DNA of 64,000 nucleotides. Source: Nonomuraea indica. Lineage in GTDB: Bacteria > Actinomycetota > Actinomycetes > Streptosporangiales > Streptosporangiaceae. A program made the position numbers and the translations under genes. Where the stretch lies: assembly GCF_002850745.1 (NCBI RefSeq), contig NZ_KZ559467.1, positions 124,001 to 188,000 on the forward strand, given 5' to 3'. Below are positions 1 through 9,705 of this stretch, piece after piece (the stretch's first letter is position 1; every line of letters begins with the position of its first letter). Under the pieces are notes generated by a model, which did not search any database, had not been told where the DNA came from, and was given only the letters and a program-made list of their open reading frames with translations.

Positions 1-2
1 AC

Positions 3-194
3 GAAGCGTTGGTGGGCCGGGGCATCGCCGCCGGTCTGGGACCGGAGGCGGGCCCAGCCGCCACCAAGGTGCTCGCCTGCCTGCTGGCCGACCCGGCGGC
101 GCGCGAGGAGCTCGGCCGGCGCGGCCACGGCCTGGTCGACGGCAAGGGGCGCGAACGCGTCGCCGACACCCTGCTCGCGCTCATCGGCGGCTGA
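3..194 (+). CDS. pseG: PseG-like nucleotide-sugar hydrolase, C-terminal end (5' truncated by window)
   Basis: Only the last 63 codons are present; the reading frame enters the window at base 3 and ends at a TGA. The peptide (GLGPEAGPAATKVLACLLAD, then a GHGLVDGKGRERVADTL stretch) resembles the C-terminal helix region of GT28-like PseG proteins. These remove UDP from UDP-2,4-diacetamido-trideoxy-altrose in pseudaminic acid synthesis. The assignment leans on the neighbouring pseI and pseH-type genes, which run the opposite way. Another GT28/MurG-type glycosyltransferase is possible. The catalytic part lies outside the window, so function cannot be confirmed. Confidence 0.5.
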   Translation, partial: EALVGRGIAAGLGPEAGPAATKVLACLLADPAAREELGRRGHGLVDGKGRERVADTLLALIGG

Positions 195-273
195 CAGGGT
201 CCACTGGGCGACGTCCCGTGCGACGTCCAGGGCGGGCAGGGACCGGCGGCGCGGCGCGCGTGAGCGTCACCTG

Positions 274-591
274 TCAGCGTGGGCGGCTGAGGGCGGCCTC
301 GGCCAGATCCGTCCAGGTCCCGGCGGAGGAGTGGGGCACGACCACCCAGTCCTTCACCACCCTGCCCCGCCCCGAGGGGTCGAACAGGGACGCGCCAGGC
401 AGCCCGAGCGCGGCCGTGTGTTCGGGAGTGTCCCTGACGAGCCGGAACACCATCGCGCCGTCGCGCCACAGGCTCGCGAACACCTTGCCCGCCTGGTCCT
501 TGAGCGCGGGGCTCCCCATCATCGTGGAGACCCGTACACCCAGGTCGGCCAGCTCGGCGCCGACCTGCCTGAAGTCCTCTTCCGCGCTCAT
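274..591 (-). CDS. TfoX/Sxy N-terminal-domain family protein
   Basis: A 105-residue cytosolic protein of the small TfoX_N type. It starts SAEEDFRQVGAEL and has a central KVFASLWRDGAMVFRL strand pair and a closing KDWVVVPHSSAGTW motif, typical of actinobacterial single-domain members. In Gammaproteobacteria TfoX regulates competence, but these short actinobacterial relatives have no established role. It sits between the convergent PseG-like end and pseI and is probably unrelated to glycan synthesis. No signal peptide or membrane segment is visible. The family call is fairly secure; the function is unknown. Confidence 0.6.
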   Translation of the reverse strand: MSAEEDFRQVGAELADLGVRVSTMMGSPALKDQAGKVFASLWRDGAMVFRLVRDTPEHTAALGLPGASLFDPSGRGRVVKDWVVVPHSSAGTWTDLAEAALSRPR

Positions 592-760
592 CGTCAGTAG
601 GTCCCCAACTCCATGGCGGTGTGGCCGGGCGGCTGGTCGTGGCCGGGGCCGCTCCCGTGTGACGCGATCGCCGCGGCTCCGCCTTCCGGCAGCACGGCGA
701 TCACGTTAGTCGCCCCGGCGGTGCCGATCAAGGCCGGGAAGGGGCCCCGTGCCCTCGCCT

Positions 761-790
761 CCTGGGACCCCGTCTAGACGAGGTCCCAGG
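761..790. repeat. Near-perfect 30-bp palindrome spanning the pseI stop codon
   Basis: The arms CCTGGGACC (761-769) and GGTCCCAGG (782-790) flank a smaller perfect palindrome, CGTCTAGACG (771-780). One mismatched pair (770/781) lies between them. The pseI TAG stop is inside the inner palindrome. It could fold as a terminator-like hairpin at the very end of pseI transcripts or act as a protein site. Confidence 0.6.
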
Positions 791-1817
791 TGAGCGGGGT
801 GCCGAGCGGGACGTCGCGGGTGAAGCGGCGGCCCATCACCTCGGCCAGCGCCGCGGGGGGCAGCCCGCCGGCGGGCCGGACGGACCGGACGTTGCCGTCG
901 GTCACCGCCTCGCCCGCGCGCACGTCCCTGACCACGTACAGCGACCGGCGGAAGCGCAGCCCCTCGCGCTCCGACGGCCGCGGCCCCAGCTCCGGCCGCC
1001 CGAGCGCCTCCCAGGCGCGCCCGCTCTCGGTGACGAGCGCCGCCAGTTCGCCGGGCTCCAGCGAGAAGGCCGCGTCCACCCCGCCGCCCCGCCGGTCGAG
1101 CGTGACGTGCTTCTCGATCAGGCAGGCGCCGAGGGCCACGGCGGCGAGGGCGGCGCCGAGTCCCGGTGTGTGGTCGGAGACGCCGACCACGGCCCCGGTC
1201 AGCCCGGCCAGCAGCGGCAGCGCGCGCAGGTTGCTCTCGGCCGGGTCGGCGGGATAGCTCGCCGTGCAGGCCAGCACGGCGAGCTGGGCGCACCCGGCCT
1301 CGCGGGCGGCGCGCACGGCCGCGTCGATCTCGCCGGCCGACGCCATGCCGGTGGACAGGATCAGCGGCTTGCCGGTGGCGGCGGCGAGCCGGATCAGCGG
1401 CAGGTCCACGATCTCCGACGACGCGATCTTGTACGCCGGGACGTCCAGCTTCTCCAGCAGGTCCACGGCGGTGGGGTCGAACGGGGACGAGAACGCGACC
1501 AGGCCCCGCTGCCGGGCCCTGGCGAAGATGGGCTCGTGCCACTCCCAGGGCGTGTGGGCCCGCTCGTAGAGGTCGTAGAGGCGCTCGCCGCCCCACAGCT
1601 CGTGCCCGTCGCCGAGCCGGAACGCCGGCCCGTCGGCGTTGACCGTGATCGTGTCGGGCCGGTAGGTCTGCAGCTTGACCGCGTGCGCGCCGGCGTCGGC
1701 CGCCGCGTCCACGATCGCCAGGGCCCGCTGGAGGCTGCCGTCGTGGTTGCCGGACATCTCGGCGATGACGAACGGCGGATGGCCCGCCCCGACGGCGCGG
1801 CCCGCGATCGTGATCAT
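774..1817 (-). CDS. pseI: Pseudaminic acid synthase (NeuB/PseI family)
   Basis: A 347-residue enzyme expected to condense a 6-deoxy-AltdiNAc-type sugar with phosphoenolpyruvate to make pseudaminic acid. The N-terminal TIM-barrel domain has the family signature IAEMSGNH at residues 18-25 and KLQTY at 48-52. The C-terminal part (about 280-345) is an antifreeze-like SAF domain with SLYVVRDVRAGE and a closing FTRDVPLGTPL. The form of the signature (SGNHDGSLQRAL) is closer to PseI than to sialic acid NeuB. The ATG at 1817 overlaps the TGA of the upstream acetyltransferase by 4 bp, indicating translational coupling. An open frame extends further upstream but is out-of-frame overlap with pseH. Whether the product is pseudaminic or legionaminic acid cannot be settled from sequence alone. 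Confidence 0.85.
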   Translation of the reverse strand: MITIAGRAVGAGHPPFVIAEMSGNHDGSLQRALAIVDAAADAGAHAVKLQTYRPDTITVNADGPAFRLGDGHELWGGERLYDLYERAHTPWEWHEPIFARARQRGLVAFSSPFDPTAVDLLEKLDVPAYKIASSEIVDLPLIRLAAATGKPLILSTGMASAGEIDAAVRAAREAGCAQLAVLACTASYPADPAESNLRALPLLAGLTGAVVGVSDHTPGLGAALAAVALGACLIEKHVTLDRRGGGVDAAFSLEPGELAALVTESGRAWEALGRPELGPRPSEREGLRFRRSLYVVRDVRAGEAVTDGNVRSVRPAGGLPPAALAEVMGRRFTRDVPLGTPLTWDLV

Positions 1818-2314
1818 GTGGGGTCCTTCCTGGTCAGCTCGACGGTGACGACGTCCACGGGCGTCCCGTCCACCTCGCGCCGGTGGACGCCGACCTCGGC
1901 GAAGCCGAAGCGGCGGTGCAGCCGCCGGACCGGTTCGTTGCCCGCGAGCACCTGGCCGCGCAGCGTGGTCAGGCCGAGCGGGCCGAAGGCGTGGCCGATC
2001 GCGGCCCGCTCCAGCCCGGCCCACGCCCCGAGCACCGCGCCCGTCCGCTCCAACCCGTCCAGGTCGAGGTAGAAGCCCCACTCACCGGTCGTGGCGGCGG
2101 GATCGAGCCCGGAGAAGGTCACCACGCCCGCGTCGCGCCCGTCGTGCTCGTACACCAGCACGCGCCTGGCCGGATCGTGGCGCACCGCCGCCCACCAGCG
2201 GGCGTGCTCGGCCGCGCCGATCACATGGGTGGTGAAGCTGGCCGCGCGCACACGCGGGTGGTTGCGCCAGCGCAGCAGCGCCGGCAGGTCGTCGTCGCGA
2301 ACCGGCCTCAGCAC
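1814..2314 (-). CDS. pseH: GNAT acetyltransferase, PseH-like
   Basis: A 166-residue GNAT protein that starts LRPVRDDDLPALLRWRNHP, the classic opening of PseH and RimJ-like sugar N-acetyltransferases. It has a central GEWGFYLDLDG strand and the acetyl-CoA-side segment LRGQVLAGNEPVRRLHRRFG. PseH acetylates the 4-amino group of UDP-4-amino-4,6-dideoxy-AltNAc with acetyl-CoA. The GTG start at 2314 follows a close AGGAGGAGT ribosome site. The 3' end overlaps pseI by 4 bp, so both should be made from one transcript. The promoter should lie in 2315-2471, divergent from the GT2 gene. The PseH assignment depends partly on this coupling. Confidence 0.78.
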   Translation of the reverse strand: MLRPVRDDDLPALLRWRNHPRVRAASFTTHVIGAAEHARWWAAVRHDPARRVLVYEHDGRDAGVVTFSGLDPAATTGEWGFYLDLDGLERTGAVLGAWAGLERAAIGHAFGPLGLTTLRGQVLAGNEPVRRLHRRFGFAEVGVHRREVDGTPVDVVTVELTRKDPT

Positions 2315-2471
2315 GACTCCTCCTACGCTCCGTGTCGGTACGAACTCACACCGTAGCGGATTATGTGTCTGGTAAAGACCTGATCAGGGAGGGGCAGCGC
2401 GACCCGCCGACCGGCGACGGCCGGGGCATGCTGCCGTCTAACCATCCCCCGCACGCAAGGAGCCCGCTCAT

Positions 2472-3920
2472 ATGGCGCCCCTGGTCAGCGTCGTCGTCCC
2501 GTTCTACAACGTCGAGCCGTACATCACCGAGTGCCTGGAGTCCCTGGCGGCGCAGACGCTCGCCGACATCGAGGTCATCCTGGTCGACGACGGCTCGACG
2601 GACGGCAGCAGGCGGATCGCCGACGCCTTCGCCTCCCGCGACCCGAGGTTCGTGGTGGTCCGCCAGCCCAACCGCGGGCCCGGGCCGGCCCGCAACGAGG
2701 GCATCCGGTGGGCCCGCGGGTCCTACCTCGCCTTCGCCGACAGCGACGACGTCGTGCCGCCCGAGGCGTACGAGACGCTGGTCTGCTCGCTCGAACGCAC
2801 CGGCTCCGACCTGGCGTGCGGTGGCGTTCGGCGGATCAGGGACGGCGGCCTGGCCGCCTCGTCGCTGCACGAGAAGGTCTTCAGGCGGGCGGTGCGGCGC
2901 ACCCACATCATGGACCGGCGGGTGCTGGTGCGTGACCGGACCGTGTGGAACAAGGTCTACCGCCGGGACTTCTGGCAGGAGCACCGGCTGCGCTTCCCCG
3001 CCGGGATCTACGAGGACGTGCCGCTCAGCATGCGGGCGCACGTGCTGGCCGACAGCGTGGACGTGCTGCCCGACGTCGTCTACCACTGGCGCAAACGCGA
3101 GTCGGGCGAAGGCTCGATCACCCAGCGCCGCGCCGAACTGGCCAACCTGAGCGACCGGCTGGAGGCCATCTGCGCGGTCCGGGCGTTCCTGCGGGAGGAG
3201 GCGCCGGAGCTGATCCTCGCGTTCGACGGGCTGGTGCTGGAGAAGGACATCGTCTTCCTGTTCCAGGCGCTGGAGCAGGCCCGCGACGAGGACGTCCCGC
3301 CGCTGCACGACCTGGCCCGCCAGTGGCTGGCCGTCCTCAGCCCCGCCGTGCTCGGCACCGCCCCGTCCCTGCGCCGGCTGGAGCTCCACCTGGTGGAGCG
3401 CGGTCTGATCAAGCAGTTCCGCGAGGTGCGGGAGTTCAGGCGGGCCACGGCCGACTCGCCGCGCATCGTGCCGCGCGGGCTGCGCAGGACGGGCTGGTAC
3501 GGCGACTACCCCTACTTCCGGGATCGCTCGCTGCGCATCCCGGACACGGTGTACGACGCCACCGACGAGCTGAAGCTGATGGCCAGGGTGGAGGAGTGCC
3601 GGTGGACGGGCAGCCGCTTCACCGTGCTCGGCGAGGTGGCCGTCCACCGGGTCGAGCGCCGGCCGCGCAAGGTGCGGCTCTTCCTCAGCGACGGCAACCG
3701 CGAGGTGCCCGTGCCGTCCCGCCGGACGAAGAACGGCAGGTACGTGGCGGAGATCGACCCGGCGCACCTCAAGGGCGGCGGGCCGACCTGGCGGCTGCAC
3801 GCCCTGGTCGACGCCCGTGGGGTGGAGCTCACCGGGCATTTCCGCGACGGGGACGCCAACCGGCCGTGGCGGCTGTCGGTTCCGGGATGGTCAAGAACCG
3901 GCATGGACATCGCCCATTAG
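2472..3920 (+). CDS. Family 2 glycosyltransferase with C-terminal extension
   Basis: A 482-residue protein with an N-terminal GT-A fold: VSVVVPFYN at residues 5-13, DDGS at 39-42, a GPARNEG loop at 72-77 and the metal-binding ADSDD at 89-93. The sugar-transfer domain occupies about the first 230 residues. The remaining 250 have no clear catalytic motif and resemble the accessory halves of actinobacterial teichoic-acid-type transferases. There is no membrane segment. A strong AAGGAGCCC ribosome site precedes the ATG. The next gene begins 20 bp after the stop on the same strand, so it likely forms an operon with the CDP-alcohol transferase and sulfotransferase. The donor and acceptor are unknown. 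Confidence 0.85.
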   Translation: MAPLVSVVVPFYNVEPYITECLESLAAQTLADIEVILVDDGSTDGSRRIADAFASRDPRFVVVRQPNRGPGPARNEGIRWARGSYLAFADSDDVVPPEAYETLVCSLERTGSDLACGGVRRIRDGGLAASSLHEKVFRRAVRRTHIMDRRVLVRDRTVWNKVYRRDFWQEHRLRFPAGIYEDVPLSMRAHVLADSVDVLPDVVYHWRKRESGEGSITQRRAELANLSDRLEAICAVRAFLREEAPELILAFDGLVLEKDIVFLFQALEQARDEDVPPLHDLARQWLAVLSPAVLGTAPSLRRLELHLVERGLIKQFREVREFRRATADSPRIVPRGLRRTGWYGDYPYFRDRSLRIPDTVYDATDELKLMARVEECRWTGSRFTVLGEVAVHRVERRPRKVRLFLSDGNREVPVPSRRTKNGRYVAEIDPAHLKGGGPTWRLHALVDARGVELTGHFRDGDANRPWRLSVPGWSRTGMDIAH

Positions 3921-3940
3921 TTCCAGAGAGTAATACGGAC

Positions 3941-4777
3941 ATGACGTTGCGTAGCCATGCTGAATCCATGAGCACCTATTCGCTCGCCGAGGTCTACGCG
4001 GCCCGTAAGCGCAGAGACTCCTGGTGGACCGTCTACTTCGTGGACCCGGTCGCCTGCCGGGCGGCTCTGGCGGTGGCCAACCACACCCGGATCACGCCGA
4101 ACGCGCTCACCGTGACCTCGCTGGTGCTGGGCCTGCTCGCCGCCGGGTGCTTCGCGATGGACGAACTGGCCGCGGGGGCGGCCATGTTCTACCTGAGCTT
4201 CATGATCGACTGCGTGGACGGCAAGATCGCCAGGCTGAAGGGCACGGGGACGCCCTTCGGGCTCTGGCTCGACTACGTGGGCGACCGGGTGCGGGTGGTC
4301 TTCTGCGCCGCGGGCCTCGCCTACGGCCAGTACGCGCTCACGGGGGAGGCGCGCTGGATCGTGCTCGGCGCCGGGGTGGCCGTGCTCGACCTGTTCAGGT
4401 ACGTCAACGCCCCCCAGATGAAGCGGGTCCGCGAGACGATCAAGGAAGCGCGGGCCCAGGCCGCGGAGTGCGCCACGGCGGCCGGGCTGGTGCCCGCTCC
4501 GCGCGGCGCGGGCAGGCGGCGGTCCTTCGGCAGGCGGCTCAACCGGTATCTCGCCCGCCGCCGGGTCCGTACGCACCTGATCAGCGGCATCGAGTTCCAC
4601 GCGGCGGTGTTCGTGGTCGCGCCCCTCGTCGGGGCGGCGGCCCTGGTGCCGGTCGCGGCCGTCGCCGGCGTCCTGCTGCTCGGCAACGAGATCTTCCTTG
4701 TCTACCGGATGTGGCTCTTCACGCGCAGGCACACCGTGTCCGCCCCGCAGGAGAGCCGAGAGCACGTTCTCGTCTAA
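3941..4777 (+). CDS. CDP-alcohol phosphatidyltransferase family membrane protein
   Basis: A 278-residue integral membrane enzyme that transfers a phospho-alcohol group from a CDP-linked donor. The complete signature is present: D90, D93-G94, A97-R98, G107, D111 and D115, preceded by RITPNALT at 50-57. Hydrophobic segments surround the motif (about 58-90 and 120-150), and a final pair lies near 215-260. An arginine-rich loop (about 190-210) separates them. The ATG at 3941 has AGAGAG upstream; an internal ATG at 3968 is the alternative. It lies between a GT2 transferase and a sulfotransferase, so the likely role is building or priming a phosphodiester-linked surface polymer rather than bulk phospholipid synthesis. 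The substrate is not predictable. Confidence 0.82.
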   Translation: MTLRSHAESMSTYSLAEVYAARKRRDSWWTVYFVDPVACRAALAVANHTRITPNALTVTSLVLGLLAAGCFAMDELAAGAAMFYLSFMIDCVDGKIARLKGTGTPFGLWLDYVGDRVRVVFCAAGLAYGQYALTGEARWIVLGAGVAVLDLFRYVNAPQMKRVRETIKEARAQAAECATAAGLVPAPRGAGRRRSFGRRLNRYLARRRVRTHLISGIEFHAAVFVVAPLVGAAALVPVAAVAGVLLLGNEIFLVYRMWLFTRRHTVSAPQESREHVLV

Positions 4778-4797
4778 GTTTCGGGGGTTAGAACCAG

Positions 4798-5847
4798 ATG
4801 TCCGATCGGCCAGTGTTCGTCGTCGGCTGCCCGCGCTCCGGCACCACCATGCTGCAGCTCATGCTGCACTCGCACCCGCGCATCGCGGTGCCGCCGGAGA
4901 CGCGGTACCTCATTCCCGCCTACATGCGCCGCCGGACGTTCGGCGACATGCGCCTCGCCCAGCGCCGCCGCGCGCTGGCCGAGTGGGTGGCAGGGGACCG
5001 CACCACCAAGTTCAAGGAACTCAAGATCGACAACGACGACTACGTCCGGCAGGCCGTGGAGGGGCCCGGCTCGCTCGGCTCGGTGCTCGGCATCACCTTC
5101 CGCATGTACGCCGAGCGGTTCGGCAAGGCCCGCTGGGGCGACAAGCGGCCGAGCTACGTCAAGCAGGTCGAGTACCTGCTCAGGCTCTTCCCGGACGCCC
5201 AGTTCATCCACCTGATCAGGGACGGCCGCGACTGCGTCTCCTCCCTGAAGGAGATGCCCTGGTACACCCACAACTCCTTCCACGCCGTCTCCACCTGGGC
5301 CGAGGCGATCGACGCCGGGGTCCGGCTGCGCAAGACGATGCCCGAGGACAGCTACTACGAGCTGCGCTACGAGGACCTCACCGACGACCCGTCGACCGAG
5401 CTGAAGAAGCTCTGCCTCTTCCTGGAGGAGGACTTCGACCCGGCCATGGTCTCGCCGCGCGAGGCCGCCGCGGTGGCGGTGCCGCCGCACAAGGTCTGGC
5501 ACAGCAACACCCACGGCGACGTCACCCGTTCCCGGGTCGGGAGCTGGGCCAACCGGCTCGACGCCTGGGAGATCTCGCTGTGCGAGCAGGTGCTCGGCGA
5601 CCGGCTGGTGGCCAACGGCTACGAGCTGACCGGCGCGCCGCCGGCCTCCAAGGCGCACCTGGCGATCTTCCAGAAGACCGCGCAGAAGCGCCGGGCGAGC
5701 CGGGTGCGCAAGCACATGCGCGACCGCATCAACCGGCTGCGCGAGCCCGGACCGGTGGCCGCGCTGCTCACCACGACACAGCGGGCGCTCGCCGGGGTCC
5801 CGCAGCAGCGGGCCGAGGAGCCCGAGCTGGCCGACCGCTCGCGGTAG
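4798..5847 (+). CDS. PAPS-dependent sulfotransferase
   Basis: A 349-residue cytosolic sulfotransferase. The 5'-phosphosulfate loop GCPRSGTT is at residues 10-17 and the 3'-phosphate segment LIRDGRDCVSS at about 139-149. A later ELRYEDLTDDP motif is typical of the bacterial Sulfotransfer_3 group. It would move sulfate from PAPS to a hydroxyl, here probably on the polymer made by the surrounding glycosyltransferases. It begins 20 bp after the CDP-alcohol transferase stop with GGGGG upstream of the ATG. The C-terminal 50 residues are basic and arginine-rich, perhaps for membrane contact. A role in modifying a lipid or peptide rather than a glycan cannot be excluded. Confidence 0.85.
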   Translation: MSDRPVFVVGCPRSGTTMLQLMLHSHPRIAVPPETRYLIPAYMRRRTFGDMRLAQRRRALAEWVAGDRTTKFKELKIDNDDYVRQAVEGPGSLGSVLGITFRMYAERFGKARWGDKRPSYVKQVEYLLRLFPDAQFIHLIRDGRDCVSSLKEMPWYTHNSFHAVSTWAEAIDAGVRLRKTMPEDSYYELRYEDLTDDPSTELKKLCLFLEEDFDPAMVSPREAAAVAVPPHKVWHSNTHGDVTRSRVGSWANRLDAWEISLCEQVLGDRLVANGYELTGAPPASKAHLAIFQKTAQKRRASRVRKHMRDRINRLREPGPVAALLTTTQRALAGVPQQRAEEPELADRSR

Positions 5848-5850
5848 AGC

Positions 5851-5895
5851 CGGATGCCCGGGGCGCCGCACGGGGGTGGGCGCTCCGGGCATCCG
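5851..5895. terminator. Bidirectional hairpin between sulfotransferase and GT4 genes
   Basis: An 11-bp perfect stem (CGGATGCCCGG 5851-5861 with CCGGGCATCCG 5885-5895) continues inward as GCGC/GCGC (5863-5866 with 5880-5883). It lies between two convergent genes, so it can stop transcription from both sides. No U-tract follows, which is usual in very high-GC actinomycetes. Confidence 0.65.
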
Positions 5896-5907
5896 CCTGT
5901 CGTCCGC

Positions 5908-6972
5908 TCAGCGGGAGATGTGGGTGAACAGCGCCTCCCACTCGTCCAGGACGCGGTCCAGGCGGAACCTCCCGGCCCTGGCCCGGGCGGCGGCTCCCAG
6001 CCGGCGCCGCTCCTGCTGCGACTCGGCGAGCCGGGCCAGCTCCCGCGCGAACGCGTCCACGTCGCCGGCCGGCACGAGCACCGGACCGGCCGACCGCACC
6101 CCGCCCGACACGTCGAACGCCACCGCCGGCACCCCGTGCGCGGCGGCCTCCAGCAGCACGATCGGCAGCCCTTCGTGCTCGCTCGTCACGGCCACGATCG
6201 AGGCGGCCAGGTACTCGCCCGGCATCCGCGCCGCCGCCACCCGCCCCTTGATGACCACCCGGTCGGCCACGCCCTCCTCGGCCGCGTGGACGCGCAGCCG
6301 CTCCAGTTCGCCGCCCTCGCCGATCAGGTGCAGCTCCCACGGCCGGGGCACGCCCGACCGGGCGAACGCGGTGATGAGCCGGTCGAACCGCTTGACCCCC
6401 TCCAACCGGCCCACCCCCAGCACCCGGGGGGTCTCCAGCGTCGCGGTCTCCTGCGGCCAGGTGGCCAGCGGGTTCGGCACCGCCCACGCGTTGGGCAGCA
6501 GCGCGTGCTCGGAGAACATCCACGCGTCGTCCCGGCTGAGGAAGACCGCCTGGTCGAGGGCGGGGTAGTGCTTGCGGATGGAGCCGAGGTGCCAGCAGTC
6601 GCGGGCGTGCTCGTACGAGCCGTGATACTGGCCGATGGTGCGCAGCGAGTCGGGCAGCAGTCGCGCCAGCCGGGTGACCACCGAGGGCGAGGTCATGACG
6701 GCGAAGCCGGGCTGCACGGAGCCGAGCAGCCGGGCGAGGCGCCGGTCGGCGTGACAGCGCGCCAGGCGCCCCTGCCGGTCCACGGCCGTCCGGCTGATCA
6801 CGTGCTCCTCGTACAGCGGGCTGTCGACGTAGTGGAACGGCGATGCCGCCTGGTACAGGCCGATCACGTGGACGTCGTGGCCGCGCCCGGCCAGACCCTG
6901 CGCGAGGGTGTGCGTCACCTGCTGGACACCGCCGAGAGTGTCGGCTTCCAGGCACGCGAAGACAATGGTCAC
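5908..6972 (-). CDS. Family 4 glycosyltransferase
   Basis: A 354-residue GT-B enzyme of the retaining GT4 group. The N-terminal domain carries the LGGVQQVTHTLAQGLAGRGH acceptor-side loop near residues 14-34. The C-terminal domain has GVGRLEGVKRFDRL (about 182-196) and the donor-binding EX7E element in SEHEGLPIVLLEAAAHG (about 265-281). The GTG start at 6972 follows a GGAGGG ribosome site and overlaps the stop of the upstream 883-residue transferase by 4 bp, so the two are coupled. It probably adds a nucleotide-activated hexose to the wall polymer. Donor identity is not visible. Confidence 0.85.
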   Translation of the reverse strand: MTIVFACLEADTLGGVQQVTHTLAQGLAGRGHDVHVIGLYQAASPFHYVDSPLYEEHVISRTAVDRQGRLARCHADRRLARLLGSVQPGFAVMTSPSVVTRLARLLPDSLRTIGQYHGSYEHARDCWHLGSIRKHYPALDQAVFLSRDDAWMFSEHALLPNAWAVPNPLATWPQETATLETPRVLGVGRLEGVKRFDRLITAFARSGVPRPWELHLIGEGGELERLRVHAAEEGVADRVVIKGRVAAARMPGEYLAASIVAVTSEHEGLPIVLLEAAAHGVPAVAFDVSGGVRSAGPVLVPAGDVDAFARELARLAESQQERRRLGAAARARAGRFRLDRVLDEWEALFTHISR

Positions 6973-9620
6973 GGCACCCTCCGCGCCTCGATGAAAGCTC
7001 CGAAGAAGTCCTCGACGACCCGGGCCGCGGCGTCGCCGCGCTCGTCGGCGCACCACGTCTCGCGGAAGGCGGCGTACCGCCCGGCGTGGGAGGCGTGCAC
7101 GGCGGGCAGGTCGCGCAGGCAGGCGACCAGCTCCTCCGTCGTGGTCACGCACGGGCCTGGGGCGATCGACGGAAGGTCGTGGTAGACGCCACGCTCGCGC
7201 AGCCGGTAGTCGTCCCAGTCGTCGATGAGGAAGAGCATCGGCCTGCCGGTCAGCGCGTAGTCGCACATCACCGACGAGTAGTCGGTGAGCAGCGCGTCGG
7301 AGGCGAGCATGAGGTCGTTGACCTCGGGATAGGTTCCGGCGGGCCGGACGAAGTGCAGCAGGTGCCGCGGCACCGCGTAGCGCTCCACCGGGTGGGTCCG
7401 CAGGATCACCACCCACTCGCCGGCCAGCTCCTCGGCCATCAGCTCCAGGTCGGCCCGTACCGACCTGCCGTCGCCCTTGGCCTGGTCGCGGTAGGTGGGG
7501 GCGTACAGCAGCACCTTGCGGCCGGGCGGGATCTCCAGCCTGGCCCGCACGTCCGTGGTGGATCTGCCGTGCACCAGGGCGTCGCAGCGCGGCGTGCCGT
7601 ACCGGTAGACGGGCCCGGTGTAGCCGTTGGCGCGGACGAAGTGCCGGGTGAACTCGGCGCTCGGCGAGACCAGCGCGTCCCAGCGGGCGACGGCGGCGCG
7701 CCAGCGCCGGCGCGGCCGGTCGAAGTCCGCGCGCAGGTCGGGCGCGTCGAAGCCGATCGACTTGATGCCCTGGCCGTGCCAGGTCTGCAGGTAGCGGGTA
7801 CGGCGCGGCTTGGGGTAGTCGAGCGGGAAGCCGTGGCTGTCCACCCAGAGGCCGGCCCTGGCCAGGGTCCAGACGTAGCGCCAGCCGCCGCGCCGCACCA
7901 GCCGGGCGCCCTCGGGCGCGCCGCCGCGGCCGGGCGCCACCGACCAGACCACCTCGACCGGCAGCCGGCGACGGCGCAGCTCCTCGTAGATCGCCCGCGG
8001 GCTGCCGGTGCAGCCCTTGCCGACGTCCGACTCGAACAGGGCCAGATTCCGGCGCGGCGGCAGGATCCTGATCAGCGTCCGGTAGGCGCGCAGCTTGTTC
8101 GCCGGGGTGCCGGCCCGGCGCAGCAGCGCCCGCCGGATCCGCGGCAGGAGAGGCCGGCGCGGGTGGGGGGCGCGCACGATGAGGTGGGCCGCCGGGCCGC
8201 CCGCCGAGACCCGGACGCCGCCGGGCAGCTCGATCGGCTCCATGGCGGGGTTCACCAGCAGCCGGTCGGTCGTGGTGTGGCCGGTGGCGAGGCTGGTGAA
8301 GCCGATGCGCGGGTCGCACTGGGCCCGCGGGACGAAGCTGACCTCGCTGACGTAGCCGCCCTCACCGGACGCCTGCGGGTGGATCGGCACGCGCTCGCGG
8401 CCGAGTCCCAGGAACGCGGTCCACTCCAGCGGCAGCGCGCCGAACGGGTCGTAGGTGCGCACGGTCATCCTGACCCGCGGGCCGTCGGCGGAGAGCTCGG
8501 TCACCTCGTGCCGCAGCCGGCTGGCGCTGAAGGGCAGCTCGGCCAGCCGCAGGCGGGTGATGTCCATGCCGGGGGAGACCGTGGTGCCCCAGTACGTCCG
8601 GCCGGCCTGCCGCACCGCGGCCCGTGGCGGCGCCTGCGGCCCGGTCAGCGAGGTGGCCGCGACCAGCAGGTCGTCAATCCGGTCGGACAGGATGAGGTGG
8701 CAGCACACCCTGGCCATCGGGTCCAGCCGGTCCAGCACCTCGGCGGGGACCCCCTCCAGGTACGGCCGGACGACCGCGGCGAACTCCTTGGCCCACACCC
8801 TGTCGCGGGTGGGCAGCGGGTTGAGGTAGACGCGCAGGTCCTGGCGCAGGAACCGTTCCTGGCGGGCCGGCACCAGGTCGGCCGCGCCGTGGGCGCGCAG
8901 CGCCGCGTCGCTCCGGCGGGCGGCGGCGACCCGGTGGCGGACGTTGTCCATGTCGCCGATGCTGAGCGAGATGGACGAGCGGTCGCGGGTGCGGTGCCAG
9001 AGGTAGACGACCCACGGGACGACGGCGAACCGCTCGGCGACGGCGTACAACTCGCTGGAGAAGACGTGGTCCTCGTAGTGGATGTCCTCGGGGAAGCGCA
9101 GCAGGCGGTCGCGCAGGAAGCGCACGCTGTAGATCTTGTTGGTGGTGAAGGAGTCGAGGAACAGCTCCGGTTCCTCGCGGATGCCGGACACCACCCTGCG
9201 CCGGGCGAACAGCGCCGGGTAGTAGCGCTGGGTCCGCCCGTTCCACTCGTACAGGCGGGTGATCTGCCCGGAGACGAAGTCGGCGCCGGTGCGTTCGATC
9301 TCGGCGAGCAGGCTCTTGCAGGAGTGCCGGGGGAGCTCGTCGTCGCTGTCGAGGAACATGACGTACGGCGACTCGGCGGCGTCGAGGCCGTCGTTCCTGG
9401 GCGCGCCGCAGCCGCCGCTGTTGGCGGCGCGGCGCAGGTAGCGCACCCGGGGGTCGGCGCGCATGAGCTCCTCGGCGACCCTGGGGGTGGCGTCGGTGCT
9501 CGCGTCGTCGGCGATCAGGACCTCGAGGTCGCCGAGGGTCTGGGCGAGCACGGAGCGTACGGCCCTCGGCAGGCGGTCCGCGTCGTTGTAGGCGATCACG
9601 ACAACAGTGCAGGCCGGCAT
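6969..9620 (-). CDS. Bifunctional GT2 glycosyltransferase / CDP-glycerol glycerophosphotransferase
   Basis: An 883-residue two-domain enzyme. The N-terminal GT2 part has VVVIAYND, a DDASTD nucleotide site and LDSDDE (all within the first 110 residues). The C-terminal third (from about residue 530) is a TagB/TagF-type polyol-phosphate polymerase with TWHGQGIKSIG (about 613-623), LLYAPTYRDQ (about 705), ILRTHP and LLTDYSSVMCDYA (about 783-795). That domain normally moves glycerol- or ribitol-phosphate from a CDP carrier to build teichoic acid. An upstream in-frame ATG at 9674 exists, but the one at 9620 has a proper GGGGAGA site. The stop is coupled to the GT4 gene. The middle 330-520 is not recognised and may bind the acceptor. 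Confidence 0.85.
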   Translation of the reverse strand: MPACTVVVIAYNDADRLPRAVRSVLAQTLGDLEVLIADDASTDATPRVAEELMRADPRVRYLRRAANSGGCGAPRNDGLDAAESPYVMFLDSDDELPRHSCKSLLAEIERTGADFVSGQITRLYEWNGRTQRYYPALFARRRVVSGIREEPELFLDSFTTNKIYSVRFLRDRLLRFPEDIHYEDHVFSSELYAVAERFAVVPWVVYLWHRTRDRSSISLSIGDMDNVRHRVAAARRSDAALRAHGAADLVPARQERFLRQDLRVYLNPLPTRDRVWAKEFAAVVRPYLEGVPAEVLDRLDPMARVCCHLILSDRIDDLLVAATSLTGPQAPPRAAVRQAGRTYWGTTVSPGMDITRLRLAELPFSASRLRHEVTELSADGPRVRMTVRTYDPFGALPLEWTAFLGLGRERVPIHPQASGEGGYVSEVSFVPRAQCDPRIGFTSLATGHTTTDRLLVNPAMEPIELPGGVRVSAGGPAAHLIVRAPHPRRPLLPRIRRALLRRAGTPANKLRAYRTLIRILPPRRNLALFESDVGKGCTGSPRAIYEELRRRRLPVEVVWSVAPGRGGAPEGARLVRRGGWRYVWTLARAGLWVDSHGFPLDYPKPRRTRYLQTWHGQGIKSIGFDAPDLRADFDRPRRRWRAAVARWDALVSPSAEFTRHFVRANGYTGPVYRYGTPRCDALVHGRSTTDVRARLEIPPGRKVLLYAPTYRDQAKGDGRSVRADLELMAEELAGEWVVILRTHPVERYAVPRHLLHFVRPAGTYPEVNDLMLASDALLTDYSSVMCDYALTGRPMLFLIDDWDDYRLRERGVYHDLPSIAPGPCVTTTEELVACLRDLPAVHASHAGRYAAFRETWCADERGDAAARVVEDFFGAFIEARRVP

Positions 9621-9705
9621 GCCATCTCCCCCCGGTCGGACACGTGCCAGGGGCATTCCCGCAGGTCGCGGCATAGTGCCCGGCTTGGAGGGGTTTTTGC
9701 CGGAT

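Follow-up and report, generated by a model that had tools for sequence, protein, structure and literature searches.

The left end of a 64,000-nucleotide stretch of the Nonomuraea indica genome (G000:C2:124001-188000 of 8.29 Mb; hereafter, the window) places genes for the biosynthesis of pseudaminic acid (Pse) beside genes for a CDP-alcohol phosphotransferase (CDPOH), a sulfotransferase (ST) and several glycosyltransferases, which raises the question of whether these genes form one pathway and what kind of product they would make. A sequence-only reading of this DNA had proposed a single pathway for a sulfated, Pse-containing wall polymer of the teichulosonic acid type. Comparison with related genomes supported this proposal in part: CDPOH and ST form a conserved pair, and the Pse genes belong to a cassette that is exchanged for other genes next to it. 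We consider it moderately probable that this is a capsule-like, polymorphic surface-glycopolymer locus of the Streptosporangiaceae, in which a conserved core is combined with an exchangeable sugar cassette, in this strain one for Pse.

Conservation of the CDPOH-ST pair

Within the genus (54 genomes, including that of N. indica), ST was found in every genome, and CDPOH directly adjoins it in all 54. A search of contigs confirmed 382 stretches, the best 80 of which were analyzed, all from Streptosporangiaceae by title or label. In 80 of these 80 named loci, ST has CDPOH upstream of it in the same orientation, either within 240 bases (69 loci) or approximately 1.0-1.1 kb away with a second ST gene in between (the remaining 11). 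This rules out a chance adjacency of the two genes and bears out the linkage in relatives that had been presumed from gene proximity. The pair is accompanied by a GT4 glycosyltransferase in 61 and by a fusion of GT2 and TagF-type domains (GT2-TagF) in 60 of the 80 loci, PseI was found in 35, and more than one ST gene in 18; since some of the stretches are short, these counts are lower bounds.

Outside the genus, 33 loci were mapped, 11 of which had been picked by their CDPOH match. ST is present in 22 of them, all with CDPOH in the ST block, and 5 of these 22 also carry PseI. Within the order, ST (E<=1e-30) was detected in 213 and CDPOH in 273 of 297 genomes, both counts including paralogs that are not side by side, and a phylum-wide draw of 396 genomes yielded ST (E<=1e-40) in 18, that of N. 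indica included. As side observations, a tandem CDPOH-ST-CDPOH-ST arrangement occurs in two genomes (L036 and L038), and runs of two or three ST genes were seen in other genera.

The residues D81, D84, G85, A88, R89, G98, D102, and D106 of CDPOH are unchanged across 25 proteins and correspond to the pattern D-x2-D-G-x2-A-R-x8-G-x3-D-x3-D, which we take to be the CDP-alcohol phosphotransferase motif. The AlphaFold2 (AF2) model of the protein (predicted local distance difference test score, pLDDT, 87.3) matched best to AF2299 (Z 19.3, root-mean-square deviation [rmsd] 2.4, 203 aligned residues), followed by IPCT-DIPPS (Z 18.5, rmsd 2.3, 196 aligned) and by phosphatidylinositol-phosphate synthases (PIPS; Z 16-17, 180-207 aligned). 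The model thus clearly points to the CDP-alcohol phosphotransferase class, within which the fold does not fix the substrate.

The modeled fold of ST (pLDDT 89.5) is closest to the tyrosylprotein sulfotransferase 5wrj (Z 22.6, rmsd 3.1, 239 aligned) and to the olefin-synthase (OLS) sulfotransferase domain 4gox (Z 22.3, rmsd 3.5, 249 aligned), with heparan and cytosolic sulfotransferases scoring lower (Z 12-14). The window ST contains GCPRSGTT, and R141-D-G-R-D-C-V147 together with S149 is unchanged across 27 sequences; both are presumably phosphate-binding motifs. By Pfam assignment, motifs and modeled fold, ST is a predicted sulfotransferase dependent on 3'-phosphoadenosine 5'-phosphosulfate (PAPS). 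While it shares its fold (Z ~22) and the GCPRSGTT start with tyrosylprotein and CurM/OLS sulfotransferases, its identity to them is only about 20%, and it is encoded in a glycan locus. The GT2-TagF fusion, in turn, aligns to the solved TagF structure 3l7i with an E-value of 1.8e-59. Two core proteins therefore belong to the same domain families as the TagF/TarF polymerases, AF2299, IPCT-DIPPS, and PIPS; what distinguishes the locus from the TagF/TarF and CDP-alcohol phosphotransferase families is the conserved gene pair with a sulfotransferase.

Exchange of the sugar cassette next to the core

Applying an ortholog threshold of >588 bits, PseI was found in 45 of the 54 genus genomes, in 44 of them within approximately 4 kb of ST and in one (G046) approximately 21 kb away. 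Gene maps were drawn for 21 genomes of the genus. In all 9 that lack PseI, the CDPOH-ST pair is retained together with GT4 and GT2-TagF, the place of the Pse genes being taken by others, and in 11 of the 12 that carry PseI the Pse genes adjoin the core, the map of G046 (L044) ending before them.

The genes found in the cassette place are diverse. In G038, taken for Nonomuraea sediminis, a phosphoenolpyruvate mutase-cytidylyltransferase, a phosphonopyruvate decarboxylase, and an iron alcohol dehydrogenase are encoded beside an ST-CDPOH-ST arrangement (L037 5418-8955), a gene set that suggests a hydroxyethylphosphonate-type group. DegT, GFO/IDH, UDP-sugar dehydrogenase, and hexapeptide transferase proteins take the place in G037, and these may be genes for a diacetamido-uronate-like sugar. 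Other Nonomuraea genomes have large GT2-type proteins instead or, in G011 and G016, the protein U533 alone, and in several loci from other genera the place is occupied by Stealth-family and PMT-family proteins.

An ST tree was built from 95 rows, of which 39 carry PseI, 54 do not, and 2 are unlabeled, at least 4 genomes being present twice; on it, the Pse label requires 6 changes, 5 of them forced by well-supported branches. All six Pse genes are present in 34 of the 39 PseI loci; of the other five, two lie on short contigs (L087 and L124), and three (L104, L076, and L137) are without at least one of the genes in the stretch. The GT2 protein between PseH and CDPOH has a match in all 39 PseI-bearing loci (at least 417 aligned residues, 369-849 bits). 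It is, however, not exclusive to Pse, as a GT2 match of at least 400 residues was found in 38 of the 54 PseI-free loci, mostly weaker (0-407 bits across all 54).

The proposal of one dedicated pathway for both Pse and sulfation could therefore not be upheld: CDPOH-ST persists without PseI in 9 genus genomes and in most of the ST-bearing loci from other genera, the Pse label changes repeatedly along the tree, and Pse genes occur beside CDPOH at a locus without ST (L080). As CDPOH, ST, and the Pse genes are separable from one another, ST looks like a partner that was gained by, or lost from, an older CDPOH locus.

Gene calls together with Pfam and NCBIfam models were used for the genes of the window and its left flank (Table 1). 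They confirmed the PseI, PseH, CDP-alcohol transferase, sulfotransferase, glycosyltransferase, and GT2-TagF genes, as well as the PseG end, that had been recognized from the sequence, and the start of PseG, the PseF-like gene, PseB, and PseC were indeed found beyond the left edge, past which the locus had been expected to run. From position -3714 rightward, the order is PseC and PseB (both -), PseF-like and PseG (both +), PseI and PseH (both -), GT2, CDPOH, and ST (all +), and the convergent GT4 and GT2-TagF (both -), with gaps of 47 bases between GT2 and CDPOH and 20 bases between CDPOH and ST.

Table 1. Genes of the locus and its left flank; positions refer to the window, unless a contig stretch is named, and negative numbers lie to its left.
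Feature	Position	Strand	Evidence
Two neighboring proteins, U211 and U533	L009 1592-3819		No Pfam match (Pfam scan)
GT2 protein, 773 amino acids	Further left of window		Pfam
PseC	Left of window, from -3714	-	402 bits, below cut-off 423.5
PseB	Left of window	-	496 bits, above cut-off 408
PseF-like CTP_transf_3 protein (PseF by position only)	Left of window, GTG start L009:8501	+	PseF model 23 bits, cut-off 205.7
PseG-like UDP-sugar hydrolase, 3' end	1..194 (start 727 bases left of window)	+	TIGR03590, 108 bits, cut-off 153.6
PseI, pseudaminic acid synthase	774..1817	-	TIGR03586, 442.7 bits, cut-off 340
PseH-like N-acetyltransferase	1814..2314	-	TIGR03585, 90.9 bits, cut-off 93.1
GT2 glycosyltransferase	2472..3920	+	PF00535
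CDPOH (core)	3968..4777	+	PF01066
ST, PAPS-type sulfotransferase (core)	4798..5847	+	PF13469 (Sulfotransfer_3), 145.8 bits
GT4 glycosyltransferase (usual core)	5908..6972	-	PF00534
GT2-TagF fusion (Glyphos_transf; usual core)	6969..9674, start possibly 9599	-	PF00535 and PF04464, 266 bits

PseB and PseI exceed their curated cut-offs, and the closest solved structure to PseI (8h2c) is a pseudaminic acid synthase. PseC, PseH, and PseG fall below theirs, though in each case the protein's own model is the top-scoring one. Of the three genes sought leftward, pseB was thus found with confidence and pseC below its cut-off. The PseF-like protein fails the PseF model, and models of 3-deoxy-D-manno-octulosonic acid (Kdo) cytidylyltransferases score it higher. 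The strain accordingly encodes a near-complete predicted Pse set, in which the place of pseF is filled by position only.

Two further observations concern the surroundings of these genes. A possible open reading frame of 105 amino acids (window 274-591, -) between PseG and PseI has no Pfam match and was not assigned to any cluster in the mapped loci. Further left, a block from -13548 to -8770 (C2:110452-115230) encodes LuxC, LuxE, and SDR proteins by Pfam, an 83-residue protein without a Pfam match, and what is presumably an AMP-ligase-like protein; LuxC relatives also occur near other Nonomuraea loci.

Proposed function of the locus and alternative explanations

According to the mechanism that we propose, CDPOH and ST, usually together with GT4 and GT2-TagF, would build and sulfate an anionic polymer that contains phosphate, or the linker end of such a polymer, and the exchangeable upstream cassette would provide a strain-specific sugar. 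In N. indica, PseB, PseC, PseH, PseG, and PseI would make Pse, the PseF-like cytidylyltransferase would activate it, and the GT2 proteins that accompany the cassette would probably add it. We infer that the substrate of ST is the polymer or a CDPOH product, that Pse enters the same polymer, and that this polymer is located at the cell surface; the prediction is one of a sulfated polymer or linker in general, rather than of sulfated Pse.

With respect to donors, PAPS could be supplied by a protein with an adenosine 5'-phosphosulfate (APS) kinase domain, which a genome search placed on contig C9 above its cut-off. For glycerol-3-phosphate cytidylyltransferase (TagD model TIGR01518), the sole match in the whole genome is an HldE-like protein, and the glycerol phosphate envisaged by the sequence-only reading is no more than a possibility. 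A candidate source of a CDP-alcohol is a cluster at C2:342-349 kb (L086 7526-13680), which encodes an IspD-SDR fusion, a glycerol-1-phosphate dehydrogenase-like protein, two CDP-OH proteins, and DUF5941. In G040, a relative of the IspD-SDR fusion, as judged by clustering, lies approximately 2 kb from CDPOH, and our guess for the CDPOH donor would be a CDP-polyol from such a fusion.

Several points weigh against a surface-polymer function of the core. Among the locus proteins scanned, there is neither an exporter nor an LCP ligase, with no search having been aimed at either. The 80 loci were ranked by ST similarity, so that close kin dominate. Among them, GT4 was not found in 19 and GT2-TagF not in 20, a few of these stretches being short, while CDPOH-ST was retained, and the pair may thus serve something else. 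Moreover, the 11 mapped loci that had been picked by CDPOH are without ST in 20 kb; two of these are paralogs from the N. indica genome itself, and several lie at the same guaA-cox site. At L080 (G288), PseC, PseB, PseF-like, and PseG genes lie beside CDPOH and guaA, with ST absent from 20 kb. Finally, among distant ST relatives (36-59% identity), the stretch lacks CDPOH in 18 of 20 loci; the idea of an invariable pairing of ST with CDPOH was therefore dropped, and the linked CDPOH-ST form is a subfamily. The ST relatives at L171-L186 (48-59% identity) form a separate subfamily, with no CDPOH in the stretches around them.

The retention of the pair whatever the cassette, and in loci without GT4 or TagF, is also what would be expected if CDPOH and ST made a sulfated membrane phospholipid or lipid head group from a CDP-diacylglycerol donor, with the glycan genes as mere neighbors. 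The kinship of the CDPOH fold to the phosphatidylinositol-phosphate synthases fits this explanation as well. Although AF2299 and IPCT-DIPPS fit the model best, they lie just ~2 Z units above these lipid enzymes. The pair is, however, recurrently linked to TagF fusions, Stealth proteins, and glycosyltransferases. Furthermore, the two distant ST loci that do have CDP-alcohol phosphotransferase homologs in the stretch both belong to a distant family, f42; in one of them (L187), Pfam checks identified, besides one CDP-OH protein, an ABC transporter (exporter) pair and a GT2-TagF fusion. We therefore regard a lipid product as unlikely.

Still less probable, in our estimation, is a classical teichulosonic acid whose backbone contains the nonulosonic acid. 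The PseB-C-H-G-I set is present, and teichulosonic acids have been described, in the excerpts available, from actinomycete walls. The genome, however, contains a separate locus on contig C13 (L012 5769-10120) that fits this description better: a fusion of 679 amino acids combines CTP_transf_3, a domain resembling 3-deoxy-D-glycero-D-galacto-nonulosonic acid (Kdn)-9-phosphatase (below cut-off), and NeuB, and adjoins a protein of the polysialyltransferase family PF07388 as well as a GT2. In contrast, the scanned proteins of the window locus include no polysialyltransferase-family member and have a TagF-type fusion instead. In 52 of the 54 congeners, PseI also matched, more weakly, a second protein encoded in a long frame, with domains checked in the N. 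indica genome alone. The C13 locus is probably one for a Kdn polymer, and it is likely the counterpart of SCO4873-SCO4882 of Streptomyces coelicolor, which the excerpts of its description present as the cluster for a phosphate-free galactose-Kdn teichulosonic acid. "Teichulosonic acid" is therefore probably the wrong name for the product of the window locus.

We give little credence to the explanation that ST sulfates a protein or secondary metabolite and Pse decorates something else, for although its neighbors in fold and sequence are tyrosylprotein and olefin-synthase/curacin sulfotransferases, the linkage to CDPOH is constant in the close ST group.

Relation to known polymers and significance

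Pse-containing wall polymers are known from actinomycetes. The S. coelicolor cluster resembles the window locus in being an actinomycete wall-polymer locus with a nonulosonic acid, but differs, as far as the excerpts of its description go, in containing Kdn and yielding a phosphate-free polymer, whereas the window locus combines Pse, TagF-type and CDP-alcohol enzymes, and a sulfotransferase. A second point of comparison is wps-1 of Actinoplanes missouriensis, likewise an actinomycete polysaccharide cluster with predicted sulfotransferases. According to the parts of the paper available (PMC13390465), wps-1 is of the Wzx/Wzy type and its sulfotransferases are assigned to galactose, N-acetylglucosamine, N-acetylgalactosamine, and heparan sulfate types, unlike that of the window locus; in its main text, the terms "CDP" and "pseudaminic" do not appear. 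The same source (2026) states in these parts that reports of sulfated polysaccharides from bacteria come exclusively from cyanobacteria, and treats their production by actinomycetes, A. missouriensis included, as possible but still to be verified. Given the sulfated capsule of Cobetia described in the available part of PMC11766843, "exclusively" appears too strong. Among the matches listed for titles and abstract starts of the open-licence literature, there was no report of a sulfated teichoic-type polymer. Open-licence full texts yielded no report combining Nonomuraea with pseudaminic acid and, for sulfotransferase together with CDP-alcohol phosphatidyltransferase, nothing beyond one paper on a human enzyme.

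We put forward, tentatively and as a possibility only, that the Streptosporangiaceae make sulfated phospho-glycopolymers of a class so far unrecorded, in which a constant alcohol-phosphate unit installed by CDPOH would then be sulfated, and serotype-like sugar variation would arise by exchange of the cassette (pseudaminic acid, phosphonate, diacetamido-uronate-like sugars, or Stealth-type phosphosugars). Because many genera of a large family of antibiotic producers retain the CDPOH-ST pair, polysaccharide sulfation in actinomycetes becomes testable in culture-collection strains, with natural strains that carry the Pse cassette, such as N. roseoviolacea subsp. carminata (L099), or lack it, such as N. 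corallina (L106), as built-in controls. If the proposed reading is true, it would mean serotype-like variation on a sulfated core in the surface chemistry of these organisms, with a bearing on phage receptors, spore sheaths, and soil contacts.

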